The notes under the pieces were generated by a model. The model was given only the letters and a program-made list of their open reading frames with translations, had not been told where the DNA came from and did no database searches. From the IMG/VR virus record IMGVR_UViG_3300032006_000098, positions 1-22,356 of that record: 22,356 nucleotides of DNA. One strand, written 5' to 3'. The position numbers were made by a program, and so were the translations under genes. Source of the stretch: a virus. Every line of letters starts with the position of its first letter. The first letter of the stretch is position 1. This document shows, one piece after another, positions 695-6,627 of this stretch.

Positions 695-1303
695 ATGGCT
701 GAAAATTTAACAAGTGACCAACTGACGGACTTGTCCGTGTGGGCAATGAAAACACCGTTCATGGCAAAGCATTATTCGCCCAGGTTAAACGACCGGGAAA
801 GGCGGGTGTTGCTTTTAAGATACGGGTGGGATTATTGCAGCATCCGAGAATGTGAAAAATGCTGGGAACTTATCCCCACGCACACGTTTACTGAGTGGAT
901 GACATCATCAAATAGCAACGGTTTCTGGGTAAGACCCACACGCGAGGAAAGAATGGCAATGCACCAGGACACCGATGCCGATGCCGAGGGTGGATTTATT
1001 GATCCATTTACCCAACCGGTGCGAGTGACCACAACGGTAACTAGAATAACGTCACCGGGGCCGAGCGACGTAGGTTGTTTCCTACCAGTTACGGTTGAAG
1101 ACATATTACGCCAGGACACCCACCAGAAAGCATGGACAACCAAGCCCCATACACTAAAAGAAATCGGCGCCGAATTGGGTGGAATATCGGGGACCAGGGT
1201 TGCCCAGATCGAAGCCAAGGCCATCAGAAAGAACCGTCATTACCTGAACCAGTTATGGAAGAAATTCACCACGATGGTGGAAGCTGCGGATGTCGCGGAA
1301 TAA
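695..1303 (+). CDS. Sigma-70 region 4-like regulator with internal insert
   Basis: 202 aa; the start at 695 is preceded by a purine-rich ribosome-binding site at 681-690. Residues 29-45 (PRLNDRERRVLLLRYGW) and 151-180 (PHTLKEIGAELGG...RVAQIEAKAIRKN) match the two halves of the sigma-70 region 4 helix-turn-helix. In housekeeping sigma factors only about 8 residues separate LRYG from TLEEIG; here about 107 do. The insert holds a Cys cluster (C48, C53, C56). Its residues 65-101, from FTEWM to DAEGGF, resemble residues 127-161 of this phage's own major capsid protein, with about 19 of 35 positions identical by eye. The protein is likely a DNA-binding or transcription regulator of late genes, comparable to phage sigma-like factors. 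What the insert does is unknown. Confidence 0.7.
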   Translation: MAENLTSDQLTDLSVWAMKTPFMAKHYSPRLNDRERRVLLLRYGWDYCSIRECEKCWELIPTHTFTEWMTSSNSNGFWVRPTREERMAMHQDTDADAEGGFIDPFTQPVRVTTTVTRITSPGPSDVGCFLPVTVEDILRQDTHQKAWTTKPHTLKEIGAELGGISGTRVAQIEAKAIRKNRHYLNQLWKKFTTMVEAADVAE

Positions 1304-3690: not shown

Positions 3691-4737
3691 ATGGATAAGA
3701 AATTTATTATATCGGACGCGAAAGTCCTGGATGAAAGACTCGGAATAGTTCAAGCATACGTCAACACGATGGGGGTTCCGGATTATGACGGGGACATCAT
3801 AGACCCCAACGCCTTCAATAGCTCACTGGTGGAACCGATACATATTCCGGTATTGGCTGGGCATGACCACGGTTCAATCGTTGGCAAGGTACTCGAAGCC
3901 CATCCCCACCATATAGGTGGAGAAGAATACAAGCTATTCGCCAGGATGCAAATGAACCTTGAAACCCAGGGCGGCCGTGAAGCCTTCAGCAATATCGCGG
4001 GGGGATTTATCCGGGAATGGTCGGTGGGTTTCAACATACCGAGCGCCGACGCAGTGGTCTATGAACGGGGCGGTAAGAAAGCCATCAGGCGCATTAACGA
4101 ACTTGATTGGGTGGAAGTATCCAGCGTTATCCGGGGCGCGTCACCAGCAACGGGAACCATTGCCGCCAAGTCAGCGGGCATGGACTACGTGGTTGGTGGT
4201 TTCTTCGTACCAGAAGAGTTTATTAACCAAATTGTACACGATCCAGGGGTCCCGGGCAGCGTAACGCGGCCACTCTGCAACGTTATCAGGGTTGGCAGTA
4301 AGGACGGAAGCGTTATCCGGGGCGCGTCACCGGCAACGGGAACCATTGCCGCCAAGTCAGCGGACATGGACACCGAGGAAAAGCCATATCCCAACGAACA
4401 CGCCTGCCGTATGCGGGAACCTGGTGATTTTGAAATCTTCAGAAATAGAGAAGAAGAAGCCGACGGCAAAACCATCCGCGTGATTTACGGGCAGGAAAAA
4501 GGAACCGATAAATGGGACATCCAGAGTTATCGGATGCCCACGTCCGACTGGTCGGAAGCGGAAGCCCGTGGCTATTGCTCCGATCACGACGGGATTAAAT
4601 TCGAGCCAGCAACCGGCGAGGATTCAGAATACGAAGCCGCTGCCGCCTCCAGCACGTCAGACAATGATGCCCTGGACACGGTAAAGGCCAAGCTTCGCCT
4701 TTTGGAGCTACGCCTCAAACTATCAGAAACCAAATAA
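3691..4737 (+). CDS. HK97-family prohead protease with capsid-derived insert
   Basis: 348 aa. Residues 1-165 are a typical HK97 prohead serine protease: YDGDIIDPNAF, candidate catalytic His58 in LAGHDHGS, candidate Ser111 in REWSVGF, and the closing WVEVSSVIRGASPATGTIAAK. The enzyme cleaves the capsid delta domain during head maturation. Residues 169-206 then repeat residues 159-196 of this phage's own capsid protein with 35 of 38 identical. This block is flanked by two copies of a 21-residue segment (145-165 and 207-227). After the second copy comes a domain starting EEKPYPNEHACRMREPGDF and containing WSEAEARGYCSDHDGIKFEPA, which also occurs at the C-terminus of other phage proteases. A charged coiled-coil-like tail ends the protein. 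The insert keeps frame and has no stop, so the gene looks intact. Confidence 0.88.
   Translation: MDKKFIISDAKVLDERLGIVQAYVNTMGVPDYDGDIIDPNAFNSSLVEPIHIPVLAGHDHGSIVGKVLEAHPHHIGGEEYKLFARMQMNLETQGGREAFSNIAGGFIREWSVGFNIPSADAVVYERGGKKAIRRINELDWVEVSSVIRGASPATGTIAAKSAGMDYVVGGFFVPEEFINQIVHDPGVPGSVTRPLCNVIRVGSKDGSVIRGASPATGTIAAKSADMDTEEKPYPNEHACRMREPGDFEIFRNREEEADGKTIRVIYGQEKGTDKWDIQSYRMPTSDWSEAEARGYCSDHDGIKFEPATGEDSEYEAAAASSTSDNDALDTVKAKLRLLELRLKLSETK
4123..4371 (+). repeat. 63-bp direct repeat flanking a capsid-like segment
   Basis: Copies at 4123-4185 and 4309-4371 differ at 2 of 63 bases by eye. They encode SVIRGASPATGTIAAKSA(G/D)MD twice. Between them, 4195-4308 is a copy of capsid-gene bases 5231-5344 with 14 of 114 differences. 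Nine codons there differ silently and three change the amino acid. The repeat unit is 186 bp, exactly 62 codons. Confidence 0.92.
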
Positions 4738-4756
4738 AAAAATAGGAAGGTACGTT

Positions 4757-6073
4757 TTGAGTAGTAGAGAGCTACGAGAAGAAGCAAAAAAATTAGCAAC
4801 CCAAGCCGAAGAAAAGATCGACCAGAACGACGGCGAAGCCGCCATCAAGTTATCCGAGGATGCATTGGCCAAGATTGCCCAGGCTGACCAGCTTGACGCT
4901 GCAGCCGAGTCAGTCAAAAGATTAGCCGGGGATCTTAACACCCCGATTAACACGGTGCCGGTAACTTCCAAGGATGTCGAGGTCTACGATGCCCACGACA
5001 CAACGGCCAGCATCAAGGCCGACTATAAGCCACATTCATGGGTCAAGGGGCTTCCAATTATTGCCCAGCCTTTATGGGTCCAGGAACAAATGGGAAGCAA
5101 CCTAAAAGAGCAAGGCCAGTTTATGACCGACACATTCCTTAAATGGATGTCGGCCCCAACCGAAAGCGCCTTCTGGAATAAGGCCACCAGTGAAGAACGA
5201 AAGGCCATGCAAGAGGACACCGACGCCGAGGGTGGTTTCTTCGTACCAGAAGAATTCATCAACCAGGTGGTACACGATCCAGGAGTCCCGGGCAGCGTTA
5301 CGCGCCCACTATGCACGGTTATCAGGGTCAGCAGTAAGGACGGATATGTTCCAAGTTTGGCATCCGCTTCCTGGGCTGCCATTGCTGAAGAAGCAGCTTT
5401 CAGCGATCAGACCCCAACCGTTGGCCAGGTGGCCTACAGCATTGAAAAGTCTGGCGGGCTTGTAAAAGTCACCAGGGAATTATTAGACGATAGCGCGGTC
5501 AATCTGCCCGCTTTACTCAGCCAGATATTCCAGGAAGCCGCTGGACGGTTTGAAGATGCTGGGGTTCTTAACGGCAACAACAGCACTCAATACGCTGGAA
5601 TTTTGCCATCAGCTGCAGCCGACTATGTCATGGCCGCAACCGGTGCAATAACCGCCGCTGATATTTTGGGGATCTACTATACGCTAGAAAGCCAACATCG
5701 CCAGAACGCTTCCTGGGTAATGCCGAGCTTAATAAGCAAGGCTATCAACGGTATCCAGTCCACCGGTGCCGGCGTACATAGCATCGCATCATTAAGCGAA
5801 GCACCAGCCGCCAACCTGTTGGGCAAGCCCGTAACACACGCAGACGATACCAGCAACAACGGTTTCGCCACTGCATTGTCTGCCAATAACGAAATTGCCA
5901 TATTCGGTGATTTCCGCAATTACTACATATTCGACCGCGTAGGGTTCACCATTCGCAGGAATGATGACCTTTACATGGGCAATGACCAGGTTGGGTTCTT
6001 CGCAACCCGCCGGGGTGATGGCCAGGTCGGTGTAACCGCAGCCTTCAAGGTTCTAAAGTGCGCAGCTAGCTAA
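4757..6073 (+). CDS. Major capsid protein (HK97 fold)
   Basis: 438 aa from a TTG start preceded by TAGGAAGG at 4743-4750. Residues 1-60 form a charged coiled coil typical of an N-terminal scaffolding (delta) domain. Residues 145-190 hold the EERKAMQEDTDAEGGFFVPEEF signature that begins the mature N-arm and E-loop region of HK97-like capsids. Later blocks include SDQTPTVGQVAYSIEKSGGLVKVTRELLDDS, the ASWVMPSLISKAI spine region and a C-terminal RVGFTIRRNDDLYMGNDQVGFFATRRGDGQV, all usual for the family. The adjacent protease would remove the delta domain. Residues 127-161 and 159-196 have counterparts inside the sigma-like gene and the protease respectively. Confidence 0.93.
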   Translation: MSSRELREEAKKLATQAEEKIDQNDGEAAIKLSEDALAKIAQADQLDAAAESVKRLAGDLNTPINTVPVTSKDVEVYDAHDTTASIKADYKPHSWVKGLPIIAQPLWVQEQMGSNLKEQGQFMTDTFLKWMSAPTESAFWNKATSEERKAMQEDTDAEGGFFVPEEFINQVVHDPGVPGSVTRPLCTVIRVSSKDGYVPSLASASWAAIAEEAAFSDQTPTVGQVAYSIEKSGGLVKVTRELLDDSAVNLPALLSQIFQEAAGRFEDAGVLNGNNSTQYAGILPSAAADYVMAATGAITAADILGIYYTLESQHRQNASWVMPSLISKAINGIQSTGAGVHSIASLSEAPAANLLGKPVTHADDTSNNGFATALSANNEIAIFGDFRNYYIFDRVGFTIRRNDDLYMGNDQVGFFATRRGDGQVGVTAAFKVLKCAAS

Positions 6074-6085
6074 TAGCAACAAATA

Positions 6086-6107
6086 GGGCGGGGCTACGGT
6101 CCCGCCC
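6086..6107 (+). terminator. Hairpin after the capsid gene
   Basis: GGGCGGGG and TCCCGCCC form an 8-bp GC-rich stem (the last pair is a G-T wobble) with a 6-base loop, 13 bases after the capsid stop. There is no T-run behind it. It more likely trims or attenuates the late mRNA, keeping capsid expression above that of downstream genes, than stops it completely. Confidence 0.55.
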
Positions 6108-6126
6108 ACTATAAGTGAGGATTTAA

Positions 6127-6396
6127 TTGGTATCAGTAGCCGAAAGATTAAGCGATGAACGCTTTGAAGGGATGGTTCTTCTGGATGGCCTGGACGCCGC
6201 TTTTATAGGGGTGACAGATAGCCAGGACGGGGGCGTCTTTTCAGCGGTTTACGATATCGACAAAATTATCCAAGTGTTAGGCCGTGACATGGGTTTTGAT
6301 GATGCCTGGGAATGGTTCAATTACAACATGGCTGGCCAATATGTGGGGGATCAATCGCCCGTATTTATCAGGACTCTGGACGAAATAACACTGTAA
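6127..6396 (+). CDS. Hypothetical protein, 89 aa
   Basis: TTG start with GTGAGGA just upstream (6116-6122). The protein is acidic and globular-looking: VSVAERLSDERFEGMVLLDGLDAAFIGVTDSQDGGVFSAVYDIDKIIQVLGRDMGFDDAWEWFNYNMAGQYVGDQSPVF (shown in part as motifs DGLDAAFIGV and DDAWEWFNYN). The pattern of a short protein ending in AWEWFxYNxxGxYxGDxTP is seen in small phage proteins of unknown role. No catalytic motif is visible. Its place between capsid and connector genes gives no firm function. Confidence 0.72.
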   Translation: MVSVAERLSDERFEGMVLLDGLDAAFIGVTDSQDGGVFSAVYDIDKIIQVLGRDMGFDDAWEWFNYNMAGQYVGDQSPVFIRTLDEITL

Positions 6397-6408
6397 GGAA
6401 AGAACGAT

Positions 6409-6627
6409 ATGAAAAACGTGGTCTGTATTAAAAGCGTCACATTAGGCGCCACTGGTGACAGTTACGAAGCGGGGCAAACCTACACGATAAAGGACGCGCC
6501 GTTCCGGGATTATGGCGAATACTTCCAGGAAGTCGAGGGCGGGGAAGCCCCGGCAGAGGAAGCCACCGAAGAAAAGGCCGAGGAAACCGAAGAAAACAAA
6601 GAAGCAGAAACGGCCGAGGATAAATAG
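6409..6627 (+). CDS. Small protein with acidic tail, 72 aa
   Basis: ATG at 6409 follows AAGGAAAG. The first ~45 residues (MKNVVCIKSVTLGATGDSY...FRDYGEYFQEVE) look like a small beta-rich fold. The remainder is almost only Glu, Ala, Lys and Thr, a highly charged, probably disordered or helical tail. It sits between capsid and head-tail adaptor genes, where small head accessory proteins are often encoded. No family is recognised and the role is unknown. Confidence 0.72.
   Translation: MKNVVCIKSVTLGATGDSYEAGQTYTIKDAPFRDYGEYFQEVEGGEAPAEEATEEKAEETEENKEAETAEDK

Follow-up and report, generated by a model that had tools for sequence, protein, structure and literature searches.

In HK97-type phages, the head maturation protease acts within the procapsid, and the HK97 capsid protein is cut during maturation between K103 and S104. 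Phage mosaicism through relaxed or illegitimate recombination has also been described, and Rad52-like phage recombinases act on divergent sequences (PMC3945230). The locus analyzed here is a prohead protease gene that carries, in frame, a piece derived from a capsid gene. It lies in a 22,356-bp IMG/VR virus record, a single metagenome contig that was analyzed whole and is hereafter called the window, in which the 3' part of a terminase gene, a sigma-like gene and the genes for portal, protease, capsid and more structural proteins follow in this order. An integrase is encoded on the opposite strand, so the phage is probably temperate. The insert-bearing protease (3691-4737, + strand) is a single uninterrupted open frame of 348 aa, annotated as a prohead (head maturation) serine protease of the Peptidase_S78 family (PF04586, E=2e-13 at residues 16-158; phrog_80, E=2e-25); its S78 domain scores 51.3 bits against a Pfam cut-off of 21, which places it within the family, and the Pfam scan of the protease returned no domain besides S78. 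The major capsid protein with the HK97 fold (4757-6073, + strand; PF05065, E=1e-45) has 438 aa and a TTG start.

Within the protease gene, a 63-bp sequence (A) occurs twice, and the capsid-derived piece lies between the two copies. The upstream copy A1 (4123-4185, SVIRGASPATGTIAAKSAGMD), which aligns with the single copy of relatives, completes the conserved end of the protease core and is followed by a 9-nt junction filler, TACGTGGTT (4186-4194), for which an 11-mer search of the window on both strands found no source. The piece itself (4195-4308) comprises 38 codons in the capsid's own frame, corresponding to capsid residues 159-196 according to the repeat comparison and a profile of 18 capsids. 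After the downstream copy A2 (4309-4371, SVIRGASPATGTIAAKSADMD), the protease continues with a backbone-type C-terminal domain and helix (4372-4737; pLDDT ~85 for residues 250-300) that are close to those of relatives L003 and L004 (dS ~0.14-0.18); all these features are on the + strand. As direct repeats, the two copies extend over 70 nt (4123-4192 and 4309-4378; 93%, spacing 186 bp), with 2 differences in the first 63 nt, and the extra unit thus amounts to 186 bp in frame, as the preliminary description had stated. The piece is in turn a direct repeat of 5231-5344 (+ strand) in the capsid gene (114 nt, 88%). In agreement with the earlier counts, 35 of the 38 residues are equal, the three replacements being I/V, N/T and G/S, and 14 of 114 bases differ, distributed over 12 codons (9 silent, 3 replacement), which bears out the claim that the local capsid gene was not merely copied in during assembly. 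The capsid profile detects it in the protease with 69 bits (E ~1e-19), and by these measures the match is far above chance. A mobile intron or intein was rejected as the identity of the insert, since the Rfam scan of the window gave no match, hence no intron in window or insert, and the Pfam scan of the protease showed no splicing domain.

To place the event in time, we turn to the relatives at the same site. Among 36 protease relatives fetched, 32 have an open frame covering the site, and every one of these contains A once, without the capsid piece. They include the closest relatives, L003 and L004, whose identity to the window is 94-95% across the 2.9 kb on the left and whose proteases lack exactly the 62 residues of the extra unit. 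Because such close backbones are without the insert, the event appears to be young, contrary to the old duplication proposed in the preliminary description; the insert occurs in a single record, rather than being present and constrained in more than one lineage as a conserved duplication would be. Neither junction sequence was found in another IMG/VR record (in scans that may omit the record of the window itself), and viral contigs gave no match in degenerate pattern scans at both joins or in a scan for the insert's capsid stretch. Against named phages, a nucleotide search with the insert returned just chance matches of 21-25 bases, and the protease reached an identity of at most ~35%, with none shown to carry the insert. 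A protease profile run against bacterial genomes found 8 weak relatives (<=37%) and no close host or prophage.

The insert is confirmed as real in the contig at the level of its sequence. Its occurrence in one record, with joins that recur in no second one, would also be expected of an assembly or amplification chimera of two strains, and strain mixtures with L003/L004-type and window-type capsids do exist. Contig L005 ends near the repeat, though a difference between L003 and L004 (GGCC versus GGAC) also branches there, and for this reason we discarded that contig end as a hint of the insert. Against a chimera, both joins are unique and not among the k-mers that the parents have in common, and would therefore not be produced by an assembler on its own; the capsid's own frame is open and held at both ends with native capsid codons, the remaining two frames of the insert being interrupted by stops; and A1, which runs into the filler, differs from A2 at 2 bases. 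A chimera of either kind is therefore unlikely, although one might have formed during amplification.

The divergence between the two capsid-derived sequences bears on the donor. The piece differs from the local capsid at 10 of 27 synonymous sites (dS 0.51, dN 0.05), whereas the portal gene differs from that of the insert-free L003 and L004 by a synonymous difference of ~0.17 (dS 0.19), and A1 differs from A2 at 1 of 17 synonymous sites. This silent excess gives Fisher p values of 0.018 and 0.016 against the portal of L003 and L004 and 0.031 against A1/A2; the samples behind these tests are small (27 and 17 synonymous sites), and gene conversion acting on the repeats could have given A1 and A2 a falsely recent appearance. 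For many of the 14 differences, the insert has the base that is common among 77 natural capsid alleles, and sometimes the local capsid is the odd one (third base of codon 181, 1/77; first base of codon 192, 4/77); the insert's Asn at codon 187 is also found in natural capsids. In the tree, insert and local capsid are sisters (branches 0.080 and 0.092, support 0.92), and the insert belongs to the window's capsid type, with 14 differences as opposed to 33-38 to the type of L003, L004 and L015. No capsid allele nearer to the insert than the local one (88%) was present among the fetched loci. If the insertion postdates the split from L003/L004, both capsid sequences would already have diverged beforehand, and the donor was most likely a sibling allele of the present capsid with a past as a capsid gene. 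On this reading, the excess of silent differences is uninformative on selection inside the protease. The dN/dS comparison suggested earlier did return a low overall value (~0.09), yet this value, like the silent divergence once taken as the sign of a protein-conserving duplication, fits divergence within capsid genes before capture and is no evidence of selection in the protease.

The joins retain leftover parental similarity. The sequence GGACACCGA occurs both in the protease, directly behind A, and in the capsid, directly ahead of the copied stretch, while it does not account for the 9-nt filler in the 5' join; at the other end, A2 agrees with the capsid continuation at 29 of 63 positions in register, the best among 418 in-frame placements. 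The sequence of the segment, its frame, its absence from relatives, the relative divergence, the predicted disorder of the surrounding linker and a swap of the neighboring capsid all argue that the segment is probably a recombination scar, i.e., a capsid fragment caught in frame by illegitimate recombination and tolerated. We infer the following course. In an ancestor of this phage that was replicating, or recombining with a co-infecting relative, the protease would have been joined, just past the 63-bp A, to a sibling capsid allele ~88% identical to the present one; ~114 bp of capsid would have been copied before the join switched back to the protease where A begins, which would have duplicated A and produced the order A-piece-A, presumably by template switch or relaxed recombination. 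The product may have survived because the frame was kept and because the piece came to lie between the S78 core and the C-terminal domain, in a linker that is predicted to be disordered and tolerates insertions, and for the same reasons the protease is predicted still to work. Recombination between the 63-bp repeats could delete the piece again.

The neighboring capsid has a history of its own. Identity to L004 is ~94% until ~4,683, falls to mostly 50-80% up to ~6,500 and then returns to 94%, delimiting a swapped cassette of approximate extent 4740-6520 (~50-88% identity to L004) that comprises the capsid and the next small genes. The capsids of L003, L004 and L015 are of one type, 94-96% identical among themselves, even though L015 is otherwise only ~75% identical to the window, and the window capsid shares 68-73% with them over most of the gene. 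By these comparisons, the present capsid type is foreign to the backbone and has been swapped relative to L003, L004 and L015. The insert and the capsid exchange may stem from one recombination period. The insert as breakpoint of the capsid swap was rejected, the backbone resuming after A2 and the cassette starting near 4740.

The catalytic core is complete upstream of the insert, which begins after residue 165: the His and Ser motifs are intact, and H58 and S111, which we take to be the catalytic residues by analogy with HK97 gp4, are invariant in 15 sequences. In the AlphaFold model the protease core and C-terminal domain are folded on either side of a linker, with pLDDT <50 at residues 147-232 and ~21-29 across most of the insert-bearing part; the run used a shallow 15-sequence alignment (mean pLDDT 57), and the low linker confidence partly reflects alignment depth. 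The insert is accordingly predicted to lie within a disordered linker downstream of the protease core. Other proteases carry different material in this linker, after a VIRGASP/VIRGSSP motif, namely a DUF3721 module (L006 type) or a longer, unnamed domain (L016 type). Since relatives hold such other material, the linker seems to tolerate insertions and is, as far as these genomes tell, a recurrent, insertion-tolerant site.

Two functional readings have to be weighed against such tolerance. Residues 149-153 form a KAMQE block that hardly varies within the capsid family, and the maturation cut presumably falls at ~K149/A150, by analogy with HK97. The copied piece adjoins this region, which had led the preliminary description to consider a tethered pseudo-substrate or inhibitor; the protease would then carry a decoy of its own cleavage target that delays activation. 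However, the first capsid residue in the piece is 159, so that the copy begins ~9 residues past the inferred cut and leaves out both the KAMQE block and the inferred scissile region, and the structure prediction of the protease, in which the insert region is not folded, gave no sign of docking or inhibition. Because the inferred cut lies outside the copied piece, we prefer to see in it an extension of the linker that is tolerated; a decoy substrate is extremely improbable, and we infer no dedicated function. A retained functional mimic, in which the tethered capsid N-arm is kept by selection because it helps the protease enter the procapsid or because it docks on capsid subunits, would suit the capsid frame kept through the piece, the low dN/dS between the copies and a protease that works inside the procapsid. 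It is quite improbable, given that the piece is missing in all 32 relatives and predicted to be disordered, that capsid-gene divergence preceding capture explains the low dN/dS, and that the flanking duplication of A is gratuitous, being unnecessary for function.

Group I introns (Rfam Intron_gpI) occur in the capsid genes of three relatives, L008 (3490-3724), L021 (5375-5610) and L025 (3824-4054), at codons 154/155, 156/157 and 159/160; no endonuclease gene was seen in these short introns. The sigma-like gene of the window (695-1303) also has a capsid-like part (~878-1006), homologous to capsid residues 124-164, i.e., the maturation-site region. Such a segment was detected in the sigma-like genes of the window, L117, L118, L015 and L119 (E 4e-6 to 1.5e-8) and weakly in L120, and a scan with the family alignment yielded no further members. 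About 100 residues, the capsid-like segment among them, are inserted in the domain of the sigma-like protein, and Pfam Sigma70_r4 matches the second half alone, after this insert; in L120, a second sigma-like protein from ~5292 stands beside the first with a different insert at the same place. Both captured capsid segments thus have an edge in or near the intron-site region of the capsid: the introns sit at the left edge of the piece copied into the protease, which starts at codon 159, and the end of the sigma-like gene's segment is close to that position. A break at a capsid intron homing site could have produced free capsid ends, which would have been captured in the protease and, earlier, in the 695-1303 gene. 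Such a trigger, which would refine the scar reading rather than compete with it, is a lead and not a result: the window itself has no intron, the relatives' introns are short, with no endonuclease gene seen, and a highly conserved site could draw both captures by chance. We regard it as unlikely.

The segment is probably a good example of phage mosaicism, and a neutral one: a well-resolved snapshot of a process that places part of one structural gene inside another, in frame. It also illustrates that, where a sibling allele could have been the donor, differences at silent sites do not by themselves imply an ancient duplication under selection. That the N-arm piece is a selected mimic recruiting or regulating the protease in procapsid assembly is highly improbable; were it true, the piece would, together with the older capsid-like segment of the sigma-like gene, indicate that the capsid maturation region has been used more than once as a module in other phage proteins, and a functional piece would represent a new way of directing the maturation protease to its shell.

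Compared with known systems, the locus resembles phage mosaicism by relaxed or illegitimate recombination (PMC3945230) in its short join similarity, divergent donor, in-frame survivor and swapped neighbor cassette, and differs in that the recipient gene, 1 kb away, is not homologous to the donor fragment and the landing sequence was duplicated. With HK97-type prohead proteases (PF04586), it shares the H and S motifs (GHD, REWSVGF), the portal-protease-capsid order and a herpes-protease-like fold, the latter by weak Foldseek matches in which herpesvirus proteases rank top and none falls below E = 0.001; unlike them, it has 62 extra linker residues, 38 of them capsid-derived. The L006-type S78 proteases likewise carry an added module in the same linker after VIRGASP, yet their DUF3721 is a recurrent domain found in several records and not a piece of the capsid.
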